In this document: positions 1,053-64,000 of the stretch, in pieces
How positions within the stretch are numbered: the first letter of the stretch is position 1
Layout of the letters: the number at the start of each line of letters is the position of its first letter
NCBI GenBank assembly: GCA_020205615.1
Contig: CM035163.1
Coordinates: 56,641,899-56,705,898 of the forward strand
Source of the DNA: Panax quinquefolius
Lineage: Eukaryota > Streptophyta > Magnoliopsida > Apiales > Araliaceae
Direction: 5' to 3'
DNA: 64,000 nt
Made by a program: the position numbers and the translations under genes
Notes under the pieces: model-generated
Databases searched by the model: none
Told to the model about the DNA's origin: nothing
Seen by the model: the letters and a program-made list of their open reading frames with translations, nothing else

Positions 1053-2100
1053 ATGGCCACCAACAACCAAAGGTTGAGCAATCTGGAGAATCAGGCTCAA
1101 GAGCAACACGGTACTATGCATCGATGCAAACCCAGCTGGGTGTATTAACTTCAATGCAACAAGGACTAGATGAAAAGATGGAGATGATGATGCAGAACTT
1201 TGAAGCACTTATGGGAATACAGAGACAATAGAAGGATGCGACTCAAACAGGTCATACGGAGCCTTCTACGAACTCTGTACTAGGTCCATTTGATCAACAT
1301 GCTAAGTTGGATAAATTTGATAGTATTTTTTGAACTATTAAATTTGAATTCCCAAAATTCATGGGGGAAAATCCCAGATCCTGGATAAGGAAATGCAACA
1401 AGTTGTTCTCCCACCACTTGGTACCTGATTCCCAGAAGGTTTACTTAGCAACAATGAGTTTTGAAGGGGAGGCTGAGGCATGGTACTCAAGTTATGTTCA
1501 GGAGGGACAAGAGTTATCTTGGGAATGCTTAAAAGAGGAGATAGTGGCTCGGTTCAATCCTGAGTCCAGTGATAATCCTATTGGGGAGCTAAAGAAGTTG
1601 CAACAGTTGGGGACAGTAGATGAATAAAGGAAAAAATTTGAAGAACTGAGGGGTTGGGCATTAAGTAGGAATCCTACTCTTAATGAAGAGTTCTTCATGG
1701 ATTGTTTTATGGGAGGTTTGAGGCTGGAAATACAATTAGGGGTGCAGGAGCTGAAGCCTAAAAGTCTAAAGGAATTCATAAGACTATCAAGGGTAGAGGA
1801 AGCTAAACTGGACGCCTAGCTTAAGAGAAGTAAGATGGTCAATAAACATGTAGCTAGTCCAGGTATGCATTCACATGGATATACACCACAGAGCAGACCA
1901 GTAGTTCATAACACCACTGACTCTGTGAGATCCATACCAGTAAGAGGATTAACCAGAGATCAAATCAATGAAAAGAGAAGGAAGGGATTATGTTTTTCCT
2001 GTGATGAACCTTATAGCAGGGAACACATTTGCAAGAGACCCCACTTGTTTATGATAATACCTTCGGCCCCCGCAGAAGTAATTGAAGAAGAGTGTTGTAT
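1053..2100 (+). pseudogene. gag: gag pseudogene of Reina-type element
   Basis: The likely start is ATG at 1053 (MATNNQRL), soon after the PBS. The frame shifts near 1100-1140 into one reading LTSMQQGLDEKMEMMMQNFE and stops at 1229. The retrotransposon capsid domain is clear at 1361-1627 (WIRKCNKLF, then EGEAEAWY, then WECLKEEIVARF), and ends at a TAA where the family continues. The frame reads on from there to about 1818 (MGGLRLEIQLGVQEL) before another stop. A CCHC-like zinc-knuckle region follows in the frame starting at 1835 (GLCFSCDEPYSREHICK). In the family this protein forms the virus-like particle and packages RNA. The many breaks mean no functional Gag. Confidence 0.85.
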
Positions 2101-2600
2101 AGAAGAAGAACTAGAAGGTAATCTACTCACAACTGGTGAAGAAGAACCACAAATCACTCTCTATGCCTTATCATGGCACAACACTAACAATACCATCAGA
2201 TTGCTGGGAATGGCCAATGGGAAATTTATAAGAATTTTGGTGGATAGTGGTAGCACCAACAACTTTTTGGATCCTCAAGCAGCAAAAAGGATCAAAACTA
2301 ATTTGCTAAATACAAATTTTGTATCAGTCACAGTCGCGGATGGTTTTAAGGTGGAAAGCCATTAACATTGCCCCAACTTATAATGGACTATTCAAGGGGA
2401 GGAGTTCCACACTGAGTTTAGGATACTGTCTTTGAGGGGGTATTGATGTAGTGCTTGGTGTGCAGTGGTTGAAGTTGTTTGATGCAGTAACTTTTGACTT
2501 GCACAACTTACACTTAACTCTATCTAAGGCTGGAAAAACTATATTAGTACAAGGGGAATCTAACAAAGTGTCTCCATCCATCCAACTAATGAATTCAGGA
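2101..2600 (+). pseudogene. Aspartic protease segment of Reina-type pol, broken
   Basis: The frame that contains the zinc knuckle continues into a retropepsin-like segment with the catalytic signature LVDSGSTNNFL at about residues 133-143 of the frame starting at 1835, preceded by a hydrophobic strand (GKFIRI). It stops at 2364 just after SVTVADGFKV. Beyond this, frames are disrupted (GGVPH, then a stop), although the remainder of the domain is recognisable at low quality up to about 2600. In the family the protease matures Gag-Pol. Here it is split from RT by several stops. Confidence 0.75.
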
Positions 2601-4080
2601 TAATTTCAAAGAGTGGTGAATTGGGCTACCCATGGCTATTTTGGTTACTTATTTGGAATGTGTCAGTCAAATGAAGATACTACCAATCACAAGAACTTGA
2701 ACTCTGACCTGAATCCAGAGGAGAGTAGGATGCTAGAAGAACTTCTGCAAAAATTCTCAGAAATCTTCCAGGAGCCAAAAGGGGTCCCCTAACCAGATGT
2801 AAAGACCACCACATCAAATTAAAGGAGGGCAGCCAACCCATGAATCTCAGGTCGTATAGATACCCTCATGTGTAGAAAGAAGAAATAGAAAAAATAGTTC
2901 AAGAAATGTTGCAAAATGGTATTATCCAACCTAGTAATAGCCCTTATGCCTTTCCAGTATTGCTAGTGAAGAAGCAAGATGGAACATGGAGGCTTTGTGT
3001 AGATTATAGGGCATTGAACAACCAGACTGTTAAAGATAAGTTCCCAATTCCAGCTATTGATGAGTTGTTGGATGAGTTACATGGTTCACAATGGTTCTCT
3101 AAACTGAATCTGAGGTCAGGATATCATCAAATCATGGTGAGGAATGAAGACATACAAAAGAATGCTTTTAGGACCCACTGTGGCCACTTTAAATTCTTGG
3201 TCATGCCATTTGGACTCACCAATGCACCTGCTACATTCCAATCCTTGATGAATGAGGTATTCCAACCTTATTTGAGGAAATTCGTATTGGTTTTCTTTGA
3301 TGATATTTTGGTCTACAGCAAGACATTCTCCGAACATTTAGCACACCTGCAATTAGTGCTACAGTCCCTAAAGGATCATTGCTTATTTGCCAAAAGAAGC
3401 AAGTGCATGTTTGGAACTAGACAGGTCTAGTACTTGGGTCATATCATTAACTTGGAGGGAGTTTCAACTGACAAAGAGAAAATAGAATGCATGCTACAAT
3501 GGCCCATTCCTACAAACCTAAAAGGGTTAAGAGGATTCTTGGGGTTGACTAGGTATTATAGGAAGTTTGTAAGATATTATGGGGTCATCAGTAGACCATT
3601 AACAGATTTGCTCAAGAAAGATAACTTTACCTGCAATGACAAGGCCACAGAAGCCTTCCATGATCTCAAAAGGGCAATGACTCAGGCACCAGTATTAGCC
3701 ATGCCAAACTTTAAGGAACCTTTTGTGTTAGAGACTGATGCCTCCCATTATGGTATTGGTACAGTACTGTTGTAACAAAATAGACCAATTGCCTACCTTA
3801 GCAAGGCAATTCCTAACCAACATTTGGGTCTGTCCACCTACAAAAAAGAATTGATGGCAGTGTTGTTTGCTGTTAACAAGTGGAGACACTATCTTCTATG
3901 GAATAAGGTGTATATCAGAACTGACCATCAAAGCCTCAAGTACCTGCTGGATCAGAGGGTAACCACCACCAATCAACAGAAATGGGTCACTAAGCTAATG
4001 GGACTGGACTATGAAATATCATACAAAAAGGGTAAGGAGAATGTGGTGGCTGACAGCCTCTCAAGAGTAGTAGAAAGCTT
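2601..4080 (+). pseudogene. Reverse transcriptase and RNase H of Reina-type pol
   Basis: RT is open at 2906-3430: [20 protein letters not shown], then [13 protein letters not shown], then the catalytic box [10 protein letters not shown] (the YxDD motif with F in first position, both aspartates kept). A TAG at 3428 interrupts it before YLGHII. The thumb and connection continue at 3434-3775 ([15 protein letters not shown]), reaching the RNase H start [15 protein letters not shown] at 3773 breaks the domain, which continues through ELMAVLFAVNKWRHYL, RTDHQSLKYLLDQR and ENVVADSLSR to about 4068. The order and motifs are standard Ty3/gypsy. The stops at 3428 and 3773 make the polyprotein non-functional. 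Confidence 0.92.
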
Positions 4081-5581
4081 TGAACCCCATATACCTATAG
4101 AAATCCCAACTGAAGAGCTTAATCAGTGCCAAATGATAACTGAGGTGGTGCCAACATGGATTCAAGAGGTGGCTCATTCCTGGGAAGAGGATGCTGGGTT
4201 AAGAGACATCATTGCTCAACTGCAGGTCAAACCAGATTCCTTGCCAGGTTATACCTTCCGAAATGGTAAACTCAAATTCCAAGACAAACTAATAGTTGGT
4301 CCTGACATGCAACTAAGGAAGAAGTTTCTCAATGAATTTCATAATTCTCCCATAAGTGGACACTCAGGTATCAGGGGTACTTATGAGAGAATAAGTAAAT
4401 TCTTTTGGTGGTCCACTATGAGACAAGATGTGATCACATTTGTTAGAGAATGTGACACATGTCAGCAACAGAAACATGAGACCCTAGCTAGCCCAGGATT
4501 GTTACAACCCCTTCCTGTCCCACACAAGCCATGGACTGATCTATCTATGGATTTCATAGAAGGACTACCCACATCCACAGGTCTGACTGTGATTTGGGTC
4601 ATCGTGGATAGGTTCACCAAATATGCTCATTTCATTGCTTTGAAACACCCTTTTTTAGCAGCACAACTGGCTCATACCTATGTCTCGCAAGTGTACAAGC
4701 TTCATGGAATGCTGACCACTATAGTTTCTGATAGAGACAAGGTATTCTTGAGTTTGTTCTGGCAATCCTTATTCAAAATAATGGGTACTAAGTTGCAGAT
4801 GAGTACAACCTATCACCCCCAGTCAGATGGACAAACTGAAAGGGTGAATCAGGTACTTGAATGCTTCCTTCGGTGCATGACTACTCAAGAACCACACAAC
4901 TGGGTGTCATGGCTACCTGTTGCTGAATGGTTGTACAATACTCACTTCCATGTGGGCCTAAAAACATCACCATTTGAGGCTTTATATGGGTACCAACCAC
5001 CTCATCTCAACTTCCACCAGTTTGGGCAAGTCTTAGATTTAACAGTGAAGCAATTCTGCAAGGAGAGGGCAAAATTTATGCAGATGCTGAGACACCAGTT
5101 ACTGGCAGCACAATCCAGAATTAAAACTTATGCCGATAAGAATAGAACTGAGAGAACTTTTGAACCTGGTGATCAGATATATCTAAAGGTGAGACCATAT
5201 AAGTAGCTGACCATAAGGCACTTCAACTATGGAAAATTAGCTCCCAAGTACTGTGGTCCTTTTATAGTAGAACAGAAGGTGGGAGCAGTGGCATACAAAC
5301 TTAAGCTACCAGAACAAGTTAAGATGCATCCAACCTTTCACGTGTCCTTGCTTAAAAAGAAATTGGGTGCCCAATGCACTGCTTCTCCTATATTACCTCC
5401 AATGAACTCAGAAGGGTATTTTTTAGTGGAACCAGTCGCCATACTTAATAGACGATTGATTAAGCTAAACAATGCTCCCGTGGTAGAAGTGCTTGTTCAG
5501 TGGGCTGATACCTTACCAGCCGAAGCCACATGGGAAAACTGGGAGCAGCTTCACCAGAAGTTTCCTCACTTTCACCCTTGA
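4081..5581 (+). pseudogene. Integrase and chromodomain of Reina-type pol
   Basis: Open from before 4081 to 5206 in the frame beginning at 3824. The HHCC zinc finger is seen as FHNSPISGHSG then CDTCQQQKH. The catalytic core follows: first aspartate in LSMDFIEGLP, second in IVSDRDKVFL, and glutamate in DGQTERVNQ, so the D,D35E triad is intact. After a TAG at 5204 the frame continues into the C-terminal region (GPFIVEQKVGAVAYKLKLP, HPTFHVSLLKKKLG) and a chromodomain at roughly 5420-5578 (EPVAILNRRLI, VLVQWADTLPAEATWENW). In chromoviruses this domain is thought to direct integration to particular chromatin. The chromodomain makes this a chromovirus, and its short linker suits Reina. Confidence 0.92.
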
Positions 5582-5610: not shown

Positions 5611-5971
5611 TGTAAGGTTTCTACTTAATAGCACGGGGGTTAGCTTTGTCTTTTTTTTACTTAGTTAGGGTCATTTTAGTATTTTGCTCCAGCATTCCTT
5701 CACTAGTTTGTTACGCATAATTGCTGAGCTGTAGGAGTCCATGTGCTTTCGTTCCTTCTAGATTTGGAGCTGAGCATGCTATAGGTATGGAGACAATTGC
5801 TCACTTGAGGAGAGGAATAAAATTAAATTGCTTTCTTGCTCCCTACTCTCTCTAAAATCTCTCTCCCTCTTTCTCTGCTATCTGCATTTCTGTGTTAGTT
5901 TCTCTTAAATTCTATTCTGACACTCACTTACTCACAATCACATCACTAAAGAAGCCCACTGATTCCTTACA
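5611..5971 (+). repeat. 3' LTR of Reina-type element
   Basis: TGTAAGGTTTCTAC to GATTCCTTACA. Near-identical to 659-1020 with scattered substitutions and one length difference. Confidence 0.93.
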
Positions 5972-53771: not shown

Positions 53772-54203
53772 TTAATATATGAAACTGTTTAATCATACAA
53801 ATTGTTAGCTTGAAATGACAAAAACAACTGGTAATATTGTACATCAAAAGTAAGCAGTTATTGCTATCTACAAGGCGGAGGAGTTTACGCCTTTTTACCC
53901 TTGGTAATGAAATCGCAAGGAGTGTTGCTCCAATTGCCAAGGGTCAAGTCCTGGTGGACAACTGTGATGAAGGGGTAGTTATCGTCCTCTTTCTCTTGAA
54001 TGATGACCATGATATCTGGACAATCATCATCTGGGATGTCTCTGTTCATACCCTCCGTATGGACCAGGACGCGCATGTTTGACAAATGTCTCTTTATCTC
54101 TTATTTGTGCCTTTGATTCCTTTCCTTTGCCTCTAGGTCTAGAATCATGACTTCCTTTCCTTTAACCGGTATCGGCTTAGGAAACAGCATAGCTACCACA
54201 GGG
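53772..54203 (-). pseudogene. Upstream Tat coding remnant
   Basis: Reads MLFPKPIPVKGKEVMILDLE, then a stop, then MSNMRVLVHTEGMNRDIPDD, then FITVVHQDLTLGNWSNTPCD. These resemble the segment before the protease-RT linker in Tat polyproteins. Reading then breaks down around 53780-53880. Similarity to the element stops near 54203, where the antisense Athila-like LTR starts. The protease core and gag are absent. Confidence 0.6.
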
Positions 54204-54548
54204 GTAAAACTTGTTGGTCGTAATTCCGATCAATATATGAGTGCAAGTATACACGGTCAACAAGTAATAAAGAGTAAGTAGAGTATCGTTCCCATGAGTA
54301 ATTACTAATAAAGCTTACCAAGCATTAACCCGTAACCAACTCAATCTTATTTAAACGATTGATTTGATATTTTATATTAAAACTATGTAATTAACTAATA
54401 CTAACTACCCCTAGAATGAGACTAGATAATGAAGACTTGAGATTATAATTTCACCTATTGAATCATTTAAATCGACACACTTCTTGTTAAGCCAAATTAA
54501 TTATACCAAATTGTTAGTCGAGAACACGAAAGTAAAATATAGCCATCT
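54204..54548 (-). repeat. Antisense piece of Athila-like LTR
   Basis: The reverse complement matches 29575-29900: TATACTTGCA, TTACTTGTTGACC, GATACTCTACTT and, at the cut edge, ATGGTCATATTTACTT versus ATGGCTATATTTTACTT. The LTR breaks exactly where CACTACACC begins. Confidence 0.8.
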
Positions 54549-54700
54549 CACTACACCAAAAATGGCCTATAGCGAAGGAAATTTTGTGAAGGAACTTAAT
54601 CCTTCACATGAGGAGTTGTTTAGTGAAGGAACAATGAAGGAAAAAAGTATAGTGACAATATAGTTATTAGCGAAAGAAATATCCTTCACAATTTATATTT
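54549..54700 (+). repeat. CACTA terminal and subterminal repeats
   Basis: Terminal CACTACACC followed by AAAAATGGCCTATAGCG, then GTGAAGGA-type words in both orientations. In CACTA elements such short subterminal repeats bind the transposase complex. Confidence 0.75.
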
Positions 54701-55129
54701 TTTTCCTAGCAAAATTGGGGCGATAGAAAGATTTTTGGAGCCAATTTATGATGAAAATTTGCGAGGACAAAATCAATTTAGTGATAGAATTATTACTCAC
54801 TATATATCATTATTCAGAAGTTTTTTGTGAGGGATAAAAATTGGTACATTTATCTTTGTTCTAAATAATTTTTTGAATTAATTATGGTGAATATAAATAC
54901 CTTAAATTTTTTATAATAGTAAATTTAATTTTAATAACACTTTTTAAGTAACTTACAATATCAACTATTTATTTTAATAAACTATAAAGTAAATAATTTT
55001 ATACTATGTTAAACTTTAAAATTTCTCCATAAAAATTTATTTTTATGATCATAATTAAATAAAGTTAAAGTTAACTGAAAATTAAATTAAATACTTTAAA
55101 TTTTATTTTTAAATATATAATATTAATCC

Positions 55130-55470
55130 AAAAAGCTGCGGCTAGTTCCATTGCGGAGCTCCCTTCCCTCAATACCCCATTTCCGGACACCCCTAAGCAA
55201 CTCAGTGTCTAAAAGAGGTCAAGTGGAGGTACTACTGAAATTGGGTTTGATTCTACTAATCATTTGGAATTGGATATTGATCCAAATTTCTGTCCGCAAC
55301 AACAGAATGTTTCTTTGTCAAATACTAATACGTAATACGCTACGGTCTGCGAATTGGGCAAATTGGCTAGTACCCTAGAAGCGAAATACAGTAAATCAGC
55401 AATTTGGGTAATTGGCTAGAACCCTAGAAGTAAAATACAACAAATCGACAACAAGTTTGGCATATTTAAT
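55130..55470 (+). other. Exon-like segment, unrecognised, with small duplication
   Basis: A locally GC-richer stretch reads SSIAELPSLNTPFPDTPKQL then a stop, then GTTEIGFDSTNHLELDIDP. A unit of about 50 bp, AATTGGCTAG(T/A)ACCCTAGAAG with A(A/G)AATACA(G/A)(T/C)AAAT, is present twice (55366-55400 and 55410-55450). It may be a fifth captured exon. I do not recognise the gene. 55470-56866 around it has no recognised content. Confidence 0.25.
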
Positions 55471-56866
55471 CGGTAAGTTTATTTCCTTCAGAGGTATGTT
55501 AATGAAATTTATGTAAACCCATATGATTACAGTGTTGCTGGGTTCCAGAACTTAATTAATTTTGTGTTTATTTGAGTTGTTTACCAACCCTGTCTAATTT
55601 GAGCTTCATTAGAGAATTTCCCATTTTCGGGCGATAATTTGCTAGAATCCTGCTTTCTCTTTCTGTCTCTACTGTCTGAGGAGTAAATCCTCCCTCTAAT
55701 TACTAATCAAATATAATTAGTTGGGGGTTCAAATAGTGGGAATTCTAGAGCTTCTTTCTTAAAGCTCTTTTAGCTCCTGCATGAATTTTTATTTCTTACA
55801 ATCATTACCAAGATGTTAAGTATCCTAATCCTAACAACCTTGATTTTCACCATACATATATGAATTTGACTGTTGTATCCCCCTGCAATTTTCTTCACAT
55901 AAAAGCCAGAATCTGATTGATCGTTGTATCCACTTTGACAATTAATTCAAAATTGCAATTACAGATTTTTTTAATCCACTTTGACTATTTTATTAGCTAG
56001 ATGGGTTTGTTCTTGCGTTGGAAATTGTTTTTTGTAGTTTTACTATTATACACTAGTAATTGGGGATTGAATAGAGAGCTTTGAAGCTCTAGACTTAATA
56101 TATAATGAGGAATCCAATTCTTTTATTTGTAGAAGTGATTTTTCTTCTGTTTAATGGTACAGTAAGTTTGCATTAACATTTGATGGTTTAAATTTTTCTT
56201 AGTTTGGCTTGTTTGATTTGATTTTCTGTTTGGTTGAACTCTTAGTAGCTAAGACTGTACTTGGGTGTTTTTGGTAATCCTGCTAATTTTAGTTGTTCTG
56301 TATCGTGATTTATGAATGCAAGTGAACAAAGGTAAAATTATCTGATTTTCTACTTAGAACACCCATTATTGGATTTGCAGATGGTCTACTTTCAGTTGAA
56401 TCTGCTCTACTTCCAATTGCATTGTGTATGCATGCACAGTAAAGAAATTAATTTTCATTGTAATCATGGTACAATTCCATTGCAGACAAAACATTTATCA
56501 TTTGTTAAAACCATTTATTTCTGTTTACAAGATTGTGATTCCTAAAGAGTGTAGAGTTCAATCTTATTTATGATGTTTTTGTACCATAAACCAATTTTTT
56601 TCCAGAATACTCGACTTCGAGTAAAAAAAAAGAACATTTGGGAGTTTACTGTAGCTATGTTTTATAACACTGGGAGGCTTTTACCACTGATTGAATAGTA
56701 AAAATGTCTTGTGGAGAAACTGCAGGGAGTGTTACTAAAGTTAATGGGTTTGATATTAACGTGTTTGGATTCTTTCCTGTACAAACTGCATTCTTTTGGC
56801 TCCAAGGCATCATTGTTGTTCAATGCCTTGAAATATGTTCTTATTTTGGCATTTTATTATTACCAG

Positions 56867-56947
56867 GGTCGTTTCAAGTATCAACCAGGACAAGTGAGTG
56901 CCTTCGGAATGCTTGTTGGGGGTTCTGTCATTACTCCAATGTTCCAG
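56867..56947 (+). pseudogene. CBR1: Captured exon of NADH-cytochrome b5 reductase
   Basis: A single 27-codon exon reading GRFKYQPGQVSAFGMLVGGS, then VITPMFQ. It is bounded by an AG acceptor (TTACCAG) and a GC donor (CAG then GCATGA). This is the conserved segment of NADH-cytochrome b5 reductase between the FAD-binding and NADH-binding parts, where GGxGITPMxQ is usual; the glycine before ITPM is a valine here. The enzyme passes electrons from NADH to cytochrome b5 for lipid desaturation. I see no other exon of this gene nearby. Confidence 0.82.
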
Positions 56948-57449
56948 GCATGAATTTTCATATCCATTATATATGGTTTCAGATAATTTCGGAGATTTCT
57001 TCTTGTACGATGAACTGTTATCTTTCAGGGTTTAGTATTTGATTTGGAATTAAGATGTATTAAGATGTATTTGATTTGGAATTGGATTTATTTTTATTTG
57101 AATGTTTGATTTAGAATTAATATGTATTTGATTTGGAATTGAATTTATTTGATTTGGAATGTTTGATTTTGTGTTTGCATGTTACTATGTTGGATTTGGA
57201 ATTGGATTTGGAAAGATTTGGAATTGGATTTGATTTGGCTGTGCACAATGTTGCTATGATTTGATTTATATTTGGCCGTGCACAGTGTTGCTGTGATTTT
57301 ATTTGGTTGTGTTCGTGAACACTGTGTTGCTCATTATATTGCTGTGATTTTAGTTGGTTGTGTTCGTGAACACTGTGTGTATTTATTTCTTGATCCATTT
57401 ATATATATTTGTGCTTGTGGGACTTATGTAATGTTGATTTATGTATTAG

Positions 57450-59212
57450 ATTGTTGCGCTGTTGCTTGAGACTGGAGCCGATGTGAATTGCAAAAATTAT
57501 TGTGGTCAGGTACACGATTTGATTTTTTATTTGATTTTACTGATTCGCAAGTTGATTTGTTCTATATTTCTTAGATCAGCTCAATTATGTGTATTTGATT
57601 ATATACTAGAGAGCAAATTGATGGATCTATTTTAAATATTTTTACTTATTGTGAAATAGATAGCATTGATGCAAGCTTGTCAATATGGGCACTGGGAGAT
57701 TGTTCAAACACTTTCGTTGTATAAATGCAATGTGAGTTTTCCTTTCCTTTCAGGATTTCTATTTCTTTCACCTTAGGACATGAGTTTGTTTAATAGTATT
57801 TATTTTCTTGTTATATGTACAGTAGAAAATTATCCCATTGTAATGTATAAATATATCATTTTCCAGGTTACAAGAGCAGACTATCTTAGTGGGAGGACAA
57901 CTCTCCATTTTGCGGCAGTTAATGGACACGTTAGATGCATAAGACTTGTAGTCTCTGATTTTGTTCCAAGTTCCCCATTTGAGTTTGTAATTACTCAAAT
58001 GAATGGCGATAAGGGTGATGCTTCTAATATTAGACACAAACATGACCAAATGTTTGCAACTCGCTTATTTTCTCTTTCTTTTTGGCCTTTACAATTCAGT
58101 TCAGACTATAAATTTTGGCAATAGCATGAAGTTTATGAATATGCTTGCAGTAAATAAGGATTGCCAGCCATGTTCAACTTGTAACAATAATTGCCCCACT
58201 GGAATAGGAATTATATGACCAAAGTTGAATGATAATGAGGATGAGAGGAAAGCATAGTCGGTGTGTATTGAGGTGTTAAATGTTGGGGTATGTTTAACAT
58301 GAAGTATGACGCCAGATAGAATGTAACCAAGAATAGGATTGCGCAAGTGCTATGATAGTTTTCAGTTGATTTTCTTGTTTGAACAATTGATATCCAATTC
58401 TATGCTGCTGTGGCAGAGCCCATTATGGTTAAGGGGCCAAGCTGTAGGTGTATATATCCATCAAATGAGAACTGGGAATATTACTTTCCCAATAGGACTG
58501 ATTCTATATCCTATTGCAGTGCACTGACAAAGTTTGTAAATAAGGCTGCTGATGGTGGTATCACTGCTCTTCATATGGCAGCATTGAATGGCAATTTTGA
58601 TTGTGTACAGCTACTTCTAAATCTTCACGCCAATGTTTCAGTTGTCACATTTCACTATGGAACTTCAATGGATTTGATAGGTACATTTTTTTTACCTGAA
58701 ACTTAGTAATATGATTTTTGTGGTAGCCATTTCATGCTTTTGAGTTGTGAAGATTAAGTACACCATTTTGTAGGAGCGGAGAACACTCCTTTGCACTATG
58801 CTGCTTATGGAGGAAACTTGAAATGCTGTCAGGCAAGAATTAGTTATATTTTTTTGATTTCCTTTAGATTGACAAATTCTATTTAGTTTGACATGGTTTC
58901 TTATTTCTGCAGATCCTCCTTGCAAATGGTGCCAGTCGGTTGACGTTAAACTGCAATGGCTGATTTATTTTAACTTGGTTCTTCTGTGTTCAACCATTGT
59001 TTAGTGCACTTGTTGTTTTTTCGTCTCTGCATATCACATTCTTTACAGAATTTTGTACACCTTTTCAGGTGGCTTCCTCTTGATGTTGCAAGGATGTGGG
59101 GGCGACATTGACTTGAGCCGTTGTTAGCACCCAATCCTGAGTTGATAATTCTAGTATTCCCCCCTTCTAATTATTTATCATTACCTCTCATGAGTGTTCT
59201 TAATATAGCAAG
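57450..59212 (+). pseudogene. XBAT33: Captured XBAT32/33-like ankyrin E3 ligase fragment, seven exons
   Basis: Exons: 57450-57509 (IVALLLETGADVNCKNYCGQ), 57660-57731 ([16 protein letters not shown]), 57867-about 58050 ([20 protein letters not shown]), 58520-58680 ([20 protein letters not shown], then [13 protein letters not shown]), 58774-58832 (ENTPLHYAAYGGNLKCCQ), 58913-about 58960 (ILLANGASRL, then LNCNG) and 59069-59212 (WLPLDVARMWGRH, stop, [12 protein letters not shown], then [11 protein letters not shown]). These are the ankyrin repeats of plant XBAT32/33-type RING ubiquitin ligases. Defects: TGA at 59109-59111 in place of the usual tryptophan, doubtful donors after exons 3 and 6, a GC donor at 58833, and no first exon or RING exons. 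Whether XBAT32 or XBAT33 is the source is not settled. Confidence 0.93.
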
Positions 59213-59429
59213 GTAATTTGCTATTAACCTTATCTTAATAGATTGATTAGATTCTCTGGATTTTTCCACCGGAATTGCATTGTTTTTAATAAAGAGTGTT
59301 TGTGCAATATTTTTTTGTCAAAATACTTCATTTAGCTATAATGATAACTTATTGCTGGGGTGCTTCACCCTGTCGAATGTGGGCAAGTGACCCTCTTGGA
59401 TTTGGCTATACCAGGCATAATTTTTATTT

Positions 59430-59663
59430 TTGTTTTCAAACAAAAAAACTCAAAATCTCGCCATTTTTGAAGCTTCAGAATCGTTGAGGAGCTTTAAATC
59501 GGGTTGTTTCATGGGTTTCAAGCATGGAATTCAAGGTTTTGGTTTGAGAAATTTGGATAAATCTAGGGCTTTTATGAGCGTCTCTGTTGGATCTCAAACT
59601 GCTGCTAATGATGCCTTTTTCTCGGATTACAAGCCCGCCTCTGCTTTCCTATTTCCTGGCCAG
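59430..59663 (+). pseudogene. MCAT: Captured first exon of malonyl-CoA:ACP transacylase
   Basis: The frame from ATG at 59430 (or an internal ATG at 59511) reads a serine- and basic-rich leader (ESLRSFKSGCF, then HGIQGFGLRNLDK), then FMSVSVGSQTAANDAFFSDY, then KPASAFLFPGQ, and reaches a GT donor at 59664. The block SVSVGSQ...DYKPxxAFLFPGQ is the start of mature plant FabD-type malonyl-CoA:acyl-carrier-protein transacylase after its transit peptide. The enzyme loads malonyl groups onto ACP for fatty-acid synthesis. The catalytic GxSxG exon and the rest are absent downstream, so this is a first-exon fragment. Confidence 0.82.
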
Positions 59664-62319
59664 GTCTATTTTAATTTCATTTTATTAAAAATGTGATTTT
59701 TTTAGTGAGTCTGATGTGGCCTCTGTTGATATTGCACTTCCAATGATCGAGTATATATTACTACAAAACACTGCTTTTAGTAGAAGAATAATGACTGGAT
59801 GAAAGTATTTGTTTGGTAAGCTACTTTTGTGCTGTAACAAAGCCTAAAACTAAAAGTCAAATCTTGTCCCATATTATTTATGGCTTGAGATGAAGGAACT
59901 CTCATATTATACTACTATTCCCTTCATTTATTTGCTAATTTTTAATGCCACTGACATAATCTTCAACTCCAATCCAAATCTATTTGAGAAGGAGTTAAAA
60001 AGTGGGGATAAGCTCCATGCCTTCATATTAACTTTATTTTTTCGTCTCCATATTTGAATTGGGATTGTTGTGCCATGGCCATGAATAAAGGAAACCATTG
60101 CATTTTTTTGAAGTAAATTTGCAGTTAAGATGTTTGTACAAATGTCTGATTGAGTAATTTGTGGTTAACATGTTGGTAGAAATATCTCAGTGAGTATGTA
60201 TTGCTGAAAATGTCAAGATTTTGACAAATGAGATGTTCATTGTCTAATAACTTTGTTGTTACTGAAGCTAGTTAAATATTCTTCATTAGTAACAGTTTCT
60301 ATTATTGTTTCAATTTTCAACTTTATAGTGTTGTTAACAATTTACTCTTAATAGTAAATTGTGGTTTATAGTTGGTGAGAACTATTAAGCTTAATCATTA
60401 GCAGCAAGGGTTTATCCCTTTTTTGTTTATCATTATTTCTTTTGTGGGTATTGGATGGCATTGAAGCAAGTATTTTCAGTTCGACTGTAAGAATTTAGTT
60501 TGAGCTCCAAATTTTAACATGCTTTGGTAAGGAATTTGTCTTGCATTAACTAAATGAAGTTATTTCTCTGCAGCTTGATGTTAGTATCTCCTTAACTCTA
60601 TTGTTGGTTTATTTCTCAAATGACAAATTGTGTGCTAATGTGCAAAGGTTGAGGTTGAGCTACTCTATATTGGATATTATTATAGGAGGATAGCCATTTT
60701 GTATTGGATATGATCCTATAAATTATTTATTCGTTTGTAGAAAGTTAGAATATATAGGATTATCTTGTTACATATTAGCTTATTAGGAGTAATATAATTG
60801 AATGTTCTCTTGGTAATTTTTAATATCTCTTACTATGGTGGCTATCCCTGAATCCCATTTTGTAAATCAACTCAATCTCTTGAGCATTAACTAACCTTAA
60901 CAAAATTTATTTAATTTGTCCTGTTATCAGTTAGGATTCTTTGTATTAGAATGTTTTATTCTATGAGTATCATCCTTATGTTGTTGACTCCCTTCTGAAG
61001 TTTAGTTGAGAATGTTTTGTTCTATCATTGTCATCCTGATGTTGTTGGTTCTATCATTGTCATCCTAATGTTGTTGACTCCCTTCTGATGTTGTTTGTTC
61101 ATATCATGTCAATTAGCAGTGGGCATGTATTTTTTCTTGTTTTAGCATCTGCATTATTTGGATTTCCTGTTTGGCTAGTTATTTTTTATGGGTATATATA
61201 TTGTATCTACTTTACTTTTTCATTCCTCCACTATACTAAGGAACTGACCTGGTTCAGGGCCTTTGGCCTGAGCTATTTTTTTTGTTTATTTGTTTGTTAT
61301 TTAGGGAAGGAAGGAAGTAGTCTAGTAGCTTAGGGTTTAGCTATAAGTCTGTAAATCATGAGAATGGCTCAAATTTTAAATTTGTTCATTAACCTTCTTT
61401 CTTATCTCTAACAAATTTGGGCTTTACTTTATCACTTGGAAAGAGCGACTTTAGTTAGTGAACCATTTGATTACTGTTTTGATAGATCATGTCAATCCAA
61501 AAACAAGAACTAGAGGTTTTTTTTGGTTATGGTCTTTATGGACTTGTACATTATTAATAGAGATGTTAGTGTTTAGGACCTTTAGGTGAGTCCGCTTCTT
61601 GATTTTTTTTTCTGAATGGGTAGAGGCAACACCTAAATCTTGGATAAGGGTGATGGGCATTCATGGACTCACAATGTACCACTTAAAGAGCCATTTACAG
61701 GCATTTCTCTTTTTGTATACATTTAAGGTCATCATTTCATGCTGATTATACTATTTAAGATGAATCACAAGTCTATTTCTATTCTTTGCTGCTGAAATAT
61801 AGGCTGGGTAAAAGTCAACAATCATAAAACTTGCATTGAAAATGACCAAGAAGGTTAGTCTCGCCTGTTTTGACCAATTATTTTTATTTCTAAAATTTCA
61901 TATGTATTCAATGGTAAGACAAAATAATTATAGCAATGATGGTATTGTTAAGGAATTTGAGCCCCTCAACAAAGAGCAAATTTCGATCCTTGTACTCTGA
62001 CCGAGTATCCCTTTCTCATATAACGTCTAATCCATCATTGGGTGAGGAGAAGGTATTACAGCAAATAAAATTCTTGAGAATTTAGAAGCCCCCGACTTTT
62101 TAATCTGCAGTAGAATTGAGTTCTTTATTATTCAGTTCAGTTCTTAACATGAAAAAAAGGAAAATTCTTAGCTAACTTGATGAAAAAATGAATATTAGGA
62201 GATAAAAATAGATCATCATAATGGAGAGAATTTTGATGTTTGAAAATTTGAAATCTGTTTATTGCAACTTTGTGTTTTCAAGCACAAAAGCTTATGTAAG
62301 CTTAATCAAACCAGATCAG
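59664..62319. other. Intron-like or filler DNA inside the CACTA element
   Basis: About 2.6 kb with no recognised exon. It is T-rich like a plant intron, with short direct repeats around 60950-61090 (TTCTATCATTGTCATCCT, ATGTTGTTG). It may include captured intron of the transacylase gene. Confidence 0.4.
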
Positions 62320-62646
62320 ATCAATGTGGTATCGTGCTTGTAAGACATGCAACAAAAAAAGTTATCGAAGCTTATCGGATCGGGTTTTGGTGTGAAGGAT
62401 GTCGGAAGAATGATGAGGAATGCGGTTTGAGGTATGAAAAACACTCACACTTTTAGCTTTAGCAGTACTTTGTGAAACCTGTTTTTTGAGAATGCCATAA
62501 TCTAATTTTTTTGTCAATTTTCCAGATATATAATGGTTGCAAAAGTTTCTGATGCAAGTGGTGAAGCTTGGCTTTCTTCTTTTAATGATCAACTAGAAAA
62601 AATACCGGGGTGCTCTGCCGACGAGCTTGACGAGTTGAAATCACAA
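62320..62646 (+). pseudogene. RPA1: Captured RPA70 zinc-finger region, two exons
   Basis: Exon 62320-62431 reads WYRACKTCNKKVIEAYRIGF, then WCEGCRKNDEECGLR. It ends at a GT donor and is joined in phase across an intron of about 94 bp to 62526-62646, which reads YIMVAKVSDASGEAWLSSFN, then PGCSADELDELKSQ. The four-cysteine zinc motif (CxxC, then CxxC) and surrounding sequence are those of the C-terminal DNA-binding domain of plant replication protein A 70 kDa subunit, which holds single-stranded DNA during replication and repair. The splice junction is intact. Beyond GTAAAA at 62647 the rest of the domain is missing. A unit of about 22 bp (GCTATGAAACTTAGCG) is duplicated at 62683 and 62725. Confidence 0.9.
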
Positions 62647-63930
62647 GTAAAACTCAACATGCAAACAAAATTGATGATGTTCATGCTATGAAACTTAGCG
62701 CAGGTAAAACCACAGGTATGTTCGTGCTATGAAACTTAGCGTGTTGTTGATTTTGTATAATTTTGTTATTTAAAGTAACCTAATCATGCTTGTGGGACAG
62801 TTCAAAAGGCCTTCAGCTGCAGACTTTTCTGATTTTGGTTATTTTTTTGCACTTGTTTGTGGGGTTATTCTTTTTCAGCAGACATGTTTTGTAAGAATTT
62901 ATGCTCTTTACTATTGTTTTTCTTTTTTATTTTGTTGCTAAAATTGATTTTCTTTCTACTGGTTGCTATGGCTGTTAAGTAGAAAACAAATATGATGTGC
63001 CACATTTGAATCAGGTTTTGTTGTATGCTAACTTCCTTCTTTTGATTTTCATTTTGTTAAACTTAGAGGAGCCTAATATATCACATAATTCGTAGTTAAG
63101 GGACAATCAAACTTTATGTGGTGTACAATGCGTTGGAGGTAAGAAAATAATTTTACGACTTTAGAATGGAGGATCAGCCCAAAGATTTTCATATTGAGTG
63201 GGATGAACTTTCTTTAAACAACTACAAAATATATACTTTAAAATTATTAATTTGAGATGCAGACTGCCTTTGTTCTCATCATTTGGGTGCTTTGGTCTTG
63301 AAGTTTGTTAGGCGAAGGAATGTTGTTACTTACAAATTGGCTATAAAATTGGGCTCCTTCACGCAATGGTCCGATTTCGGTGTTTGAGTGCCTCGCTCAT
63401 CGGATCGCTTAGTGGGTTTGGGCTGCTTTGGAGCTTAGTTAATGCAATTGATCTTCGCTACGTTGCTACTATTTAATCGCATCGCTTTCGCTGTCGCCAT
63501 CTTGTGTCCGCTTTGCTATGTATGGGCTTTGCTTTGAGTGGCTAATTGGGTTGTTGATGTTTGACTATTGTTGTGCTGCTTTCGCCGCCAAATGGGAAAA
63601 CCTAATTGGGTGGTTGTTTTTGGTCCGCCGTGTTTTTAAATTTGGTTAGGTCATCTTTTTATGGGTCTGACTAGGTTTTTAAATTTGGTTAACATTGTAT
63701 TAGCCTGGTGATATATCTTTTAGGCTTCTTTGCATTTGGTTTACTGTTGACATCATAGGGCATGTCCTTTAATAGTCTCTATATGGGGTATACGCCATGA
63801 ATTCTGTACAATTTCTTTTATTTAATTTCAGTTTGATTTTAGCAAAAAAATATAAAATCACTGATTTTAAAATTAATTATAATTTACAATGAATTTTGAT
63901 TATTTATCAATTAATTTTTTATTTACAAAT
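62647..63930. other. Non-coding CACTA interior with a GC-richer patch
   Basis: Nothing recognised. 63350-63620 is distinctly richer in G and C than its surroundings (CATCGGATCGCTTAGTGGG, TCGCTTTCGCTGTCGCC) and could be a captured 5' region, but no frame supports a gene. Confidence 0.3.
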
Positions 63931-64000
63931 TTATAATTTGTGAAGGATTTTATTTGAGAAAAGGACATTAGTGAAGGATTATTTTCCTCACTAAAATGTT
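63931..64000 (+). repeat. Right subterminal repeats of the CACTA element
   Basis: GTGAAGGA at 63940 and 63971, and CCTCACT at 63986, echoing the left subterminal words. The terminal repeat itself is not reached. Confidence 0.55.

Follow-up and report, generated by a model that had tools for sequence, protein, structure and literature searches.

A probable non-autonomous CACTA transposon carrying fragments of several unrelated host genes in Panax quinquefolius

CACTA transposons that carry pieces of host genes have been described in several plants. The soybean element Tgm-Express1 (wp allele) is a 5.7-kb CACTA transposon which contains intronic and exonic pieces of five genes that are spliced into composite transcripts of its resident gene (PMC1947982). 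In wheat, a study of chromosome 3B gives 140 CACTA-mediated capture events with 26% of the captured genes transcribed (PMC4290129). Gene fragments are also carried by Chenopodium CACTAs, one criterion for recognising these elements being subterminal units, 10-20 bp long, that lie in both direct and inverted orientation (PMC8978399). For the elements referred to as Pack-TYPE, two papers present a model in which neighbouring insertions fuse and their inner ends are lost (PMC8903248; PMC13317346).

We analysed a stretch of 64,000 nucleotides of Panax quinquefolius (contig CM035163.1), here called the window, in which positions are counted from its first letter and in which several retrotransposon open reading frames and other transposable elements are present. 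The region from 54549 to a predicted end at about 64029 (approximately 9.5 kb) is very probably a non-autonomous CACTA transposon (Pack-CACTA) loaded with gene fragments (Table 1). The criteria for placing it in the CACTA superfamily belong in part to general knowledge of these transposons. An initial annotation made from the letters alone had proposed a CACTA element that captured host genes, and this proposal is supported by a CACTA-type end, matching subterminal repeats on both sides, a transposase domain that was searched for and not found, intron-containing pieces of unrelated genes and tests of the alternatives that gave nothing.

Table 1. Positions, strands and supporting evidence of the features assigned to the putative CACTA element
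Feature	Position	Strand	Evidence
Left copy (TCT) of a candidate 3-bp target site duplication	54546..54548		sequence directly
CACTA element 5' terminus, CACTACACCAAAAAT	54549..54563	+	sequence directly; starts with CACTA
5' subterminal repeat region, nine NGYGA[AGT][AG]GA copies in both orientations	54571..54834		word counts
Fragment 1: part of the coding sequence of a TCP transcription factor, interrupted by an in-frame stop	55135..55332	+	protein comparison; fragment end approximate
Fragment 2 (tentative): one NADH-cytochrome b5 reductase exon; acceptor AG, donor GC	56867..56947	+	PDB 2eix
Fragment 3: ankyrin region of the E3 ligase XBAT33, in seven exons separated by introns	57450..59212	+	protein comparison, Pfam, splice sites
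Fragment 4: malonyl-CoA:ACP transacylase (MCAT) N-terminal exon, apparently the first	59472..59663	+	protein comparison
Fragment 5: MYB-CC (PHR-like) DNA-binding exon, donor GC	61624..61700	+	PDB PHR1 6j4r
Fragment 6: C-terminal part of RPA70, with two clear exons (62320-62431, 62526-62646) preceded by a tentative one	61951..62646	+	Pfam, structures
3' subterminal region with GYGAAGGA words	63311..64000		word counts and alignment to the inverted 5' end

Termini and subterminal repeats

The terminus CACTACACC at 54549 is followed by a dense array of subterminal GYGAAGGA words. The 5' end was recognised by the sequence that follows it and not by the word alone: counting both strands, the window has 11 copies of CACTACA, and CACTACACCAAAAAT with up to 3 mismatches gives 3 matches against 4.19 expected, the pattern itself being derived from the window. 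The CACTA terminus that had been seen directly was located again (CACTACACCAAAAAT, + strand), and the recurrence of the subterminal words at the far end of the window was likewise confirmed by GTGAAGGA, which is present three times at 63355-63978. This word has 10 occurrences in the 64 kb where 1.42 are expected, and none of 100 shuffles reached 10. The remaining copies comprise four at 54586-54689, one at 62392 inside an RPA exon, which is probably there by chance, and two at 745 and 5696. For the degenerate word NGYGA[AGT][AG]GA, 9 of the 33 matches in the window lie within 351 bases of the element's start, and the densest 300-base interval of the entire 64 kb is the 5' end of the element (8 matches). 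The subterminal words occur on both sides, direct and inverted: nine stand near the 5' terminus, and towards the 3' end there are two within the final 70 bases and two more at 63311-63362.

The last bases of the window were aligned to the inverted 5' end, and 24 of 28 aligned columns matched with a score of 18, where the best score among 25,492 control placements of the same anchored alignment elsewhere was 14. In a less strict test, 250 bases were aligned against 150; the best match was subterminal, and its score of 33 was reached by none of 1000 shuffles. In the control of this test, two of 1694 window pieces, overlapping each other near 18.3 kb and in direct orientation, scored 34, and the argument therefore rests on the anchored test. 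Carrying the anchored alignment outward places the predicted 3' terminus at about 64029, 29 bases beyond the end of the window, and the right TCT copy would also lie outside it.

Words of the GAAGGA type also occur in pairs elsewhere in the window, at 745-752 and 5696-5703 and again at 802 and 5753, with the same spacing of 4,951 bases, and flank Gypsy-type open reading frames at 1820-5206. These pairs probably belong to the long terminal repeats at either end of a single retrotransposon. One retrotransposon open reading frame of the window was 50% identical to its top match, with 51% as the highest identity among the matches listed (scoring was confined to the 7,981 candidates with the most words in common).

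Fragments of host genes

The element probably draws on six unrelated host genes and not the four named in the initial annotation, which were cytochrome b5 reductase, an XBAT32/33-like ligase, MCAT and RPA70; the last three are firm, cytochrome b5 reductase is tentative, and the TCP and MYB-CC fragments had both been missed. Each host-gene piece within the 9.45 kb represents part of a protein only, and the recognised exons, tentative ones included, sum to 1,609 of 9,452 bases. Exon boundaries that lacked the support of a protein alignment were chosen by eye with splice sites in mind.

The XBAT33 fragment was 84% identical to a Cornus florida XBAT33-like protein over all 242 amino acids (E 8e-132) and matched 185 proteins at E <= 0.001 (631 candidates); among the matches listed, the named relatives belong to land plants and the best to flowering plants. 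It has one Trp-to-stop change, two lost donors and one GC donor. A composite query returned 12 matches at E <= 1, assigned by local comparison to MCAT and, for the matched protein P0127, to TCP. The MCAT piece retains an open frame and its GT donor, and reached a best E of 2e-14 in the large database (71% identity over 52 amino acids, 65% over 63), with no match among solved structures (PDB) and none in Pfam. The RPA70 fragment matched PF08646 (Rep_fac-A_C) at E 1.2e-10, and its exons matched five distinct solved-structure sequences, four of them named as RPA subunits (best E 8e-11). By its resemblance to plant RPA1, the stretch 61951-62052 is tentatively taken as the earliest RPA70 exon.

The TCP fragment, which we take to be of the CIN type, gave a single weak match in the large database (P0127, with domain PF03634; E 0.0035), 83% identity over 24 amino acids with a sesame TCP-domain protein in a set of 12 proteins (E 1e-10) and 63% over 43 amino acids in a further comparison with few proteins. 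Beside its end lies a 49-base tandem duplication (55352-55449, 80% alike) that resembles a 5' untranslated region and is perhaps a further captured piece. The exon of 61624-61700, here labelled MYB-CC, matched the PHR1 structure at E 4.8e-6, and at E 4.5e-4 within a longer stretch; no match was obtained by Pfam or composite search, and the identity rests on one short exon. The cytochrome b5 reductase identity is tentative and the least sure of the six, being based on one short exon of 27 residues (E 0.0016) for which Pfam, the composite search and a whole-frame structure scan gave no match. Between this exon and the XBAT33 fragment, a series of short imperfect repeats at 57048-57389, formed by GATTTGGAATTGGATTT and by a unit of 51 bases, possibly expanded within the element. 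Two exon-like stretches near 59360 and 63160 were considered as further pieces and had no match in the composite search.

The claim that introns and most splice sites are retained was borne out, as all 11 listed acceptors read AG and 8 of 13 donors read GT, with 3 of 13 reading GC and 2 of 13 neither. As the pieces keep their introns, they were captured at the DNA level and not via processed RNA, in agreement with the earlier reading. Donors were more damaged than acceptors (Fisher 0.04), from which no conclusion is drawn as boundaries were partly chosen on splice sites. The three GC donors at 56947, 58832 and 61700, all of them after CAG, are either a product of decay or genuine GC-AG introns of the parent genes. 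Decay is otherwise evident from one stop each in the TCP and XBAT33 pieces, a frameshift in the middle RPA exon and the lost splice donors.

All six recognised pieces lie on one strand, as the annotation had it for its own fragments, namely the + strand, with a two-sided chance of 0.03 (0.125 for the four firmest only). This count partly reflects the fact that only + strand exons were put forward as candidates for the sensitive searches. On the - strand nothing was found by Pfam, by solved structures or by comparison with the 132 proteins from the XBAT33 and composite searches; the last comparison gave 404 stretches on the + strand and 0 on the - strand, and the structure scan is of limited sensitivity, since the + strand exon of cytochrome b5 reductase escaped it too. 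If the sense pattern were general, capture or retention in multi-gene Pack-CACTAs would be strand-biased, which we consider unlikely, the more so because the sensitive searches used + candidates only. Such a bias, if true, would imply for instance that pieces come from transcribed open DNA or that antisense pieces are selected against. In a limited search of the literature on CACTA gene fragments, the passage found on orientation concerned neighbouring insertions and not captured pieces.

Assembly of the element and alternative explanations

No transposase, Rep or helicase family was detected by Pfam in six frames with X at stops up to E 1, and the scan returned ankyrin families and Rep_fac-A_C only; it misses four of the six pieces, so that a small transposase remnant could escape it too. 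The element would therefore be expected to move only by CACTA transposase supplied in trans, the ends that such an enzyme would bind being kept. The pieces, which were copied with their introns and have since decayed, were probably added stepwise. Template switching while excision gaps are repaired, or the fusion of neighbouring insertions, may account for this. Internal remnants of either CACTA end did not rise above background (10 to 34 of 60 shuffles reached the observed score in four comparisons). This absence mildly favours template switching in gap repair over fusion of neighbours, and it is also expected under fusion if the inner ends were deleted. A search for a nested element with terminal inverted repeats (14-base repeats, at most 1 mismatch, 8-11 bp target site duplication) gave no candidate, and neither did 10 shuffled controls, the result being clean under strict settings.

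As Helitrons can carry several gene fragments and the recognised fragments all lie on one strand, a gene-capturing Helitron nested in, or beside, an ordinary CACTA element might have carried them, with the RPA piece deriving from the RPA-like gene of the Helitron. Helitron-like 3' ends were defined as a hairpin (perfectly paired stem of 7-10, half or more of it G+C) with CTRR followed by T, in part from general knowledge of Helitrons. On either strand of 54001-64000 this definition, which is strict and had no positive control, gave 0 candidates, the rest of the window yielding 1. RPA1 DNA-binding domains do occur in a putative autonomous Helitron of maize, according to PMC3288121. Against this, the RPA exons matched solved structures of RPA1/RPA70 (Helitron RPA proteins lying outside that comparison), and the six-frame scan gave neither Rep nor helicase, so that we regard a Helitron origin as very unlikely.

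The window ends before the predicted second terminus, several pieces are decayed and other transposable elements lie in the window, all of which would suit a patchwork of unrelated events, that is, a CACTA end at 54549 that is solo or truncated, with pseudogene debris brought together by repeated double-strand-break repair into something immobile as a unit. The specific subterminal words at the far side, and the agreement of that side with the inverted 5' end, speak against such a patchwork, which we hold to be highly improbable. Retained introns and a common strand would also be seen after segmental duplication of a gene-rich block without capture; the finding that partial copies of several different genes are packed into 9.45 kb between matching CACTA-type ends, with about 1.6 kb of recognised exon in total, leaves this explanation with almost no probability. 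Capture by a CACTA element is thus the reading retained here.

Comparison with known gene-capturing elements

The locus clearly exemplifies exon shuffling by a DNA transposon, its source genes being about equal in number to, or one above, the five of Tgm-Express1. Among its cargo are pieces of two transcription factor genes (TCP and PHR-like) and of the replication gene RPA70, such that hypothetical small RNAs or composite transcripts could be related to known functions. Such products are plausible by analogy: upon insertion in or near a transcribed gene, splicing could join the exons into composite transcripts, in the manner of Tgm-Express1.

Like Tgm-Express1, the Panax element is CACTA-type, has several host gene fragments and is likewise built, and it differs in being larger (a predicted 9.5 kb or so against 5.7 kb) and in carrying other genes, probably six. 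With the Pack-CACTA and Pack-TYPE elements of Arabidopsis, maize and rice it shares, as these are characterised in PMC8903248, a non-autonomous nature and coding DNA from several loci, whereas it is without the internal end remnants that would mark fusion of neighbours. Maize gene-capturing Helitrons similarly hold several captured fragments per element, as stated in PMC3288121, and in contrast to them neither Helitron-like ends nor Rep/helicase were found here. The subterminal words resemble those of the Chenopodium CACTAs. The capture of gene pieces by CACTA elements is common to wheat chromosome 3B, where chromosome-wide element annotation and expression data were used (PMC4290129). With these soybean, maize and wheat precedents, the Panax element is a further, richly loaded case of a documented kind.
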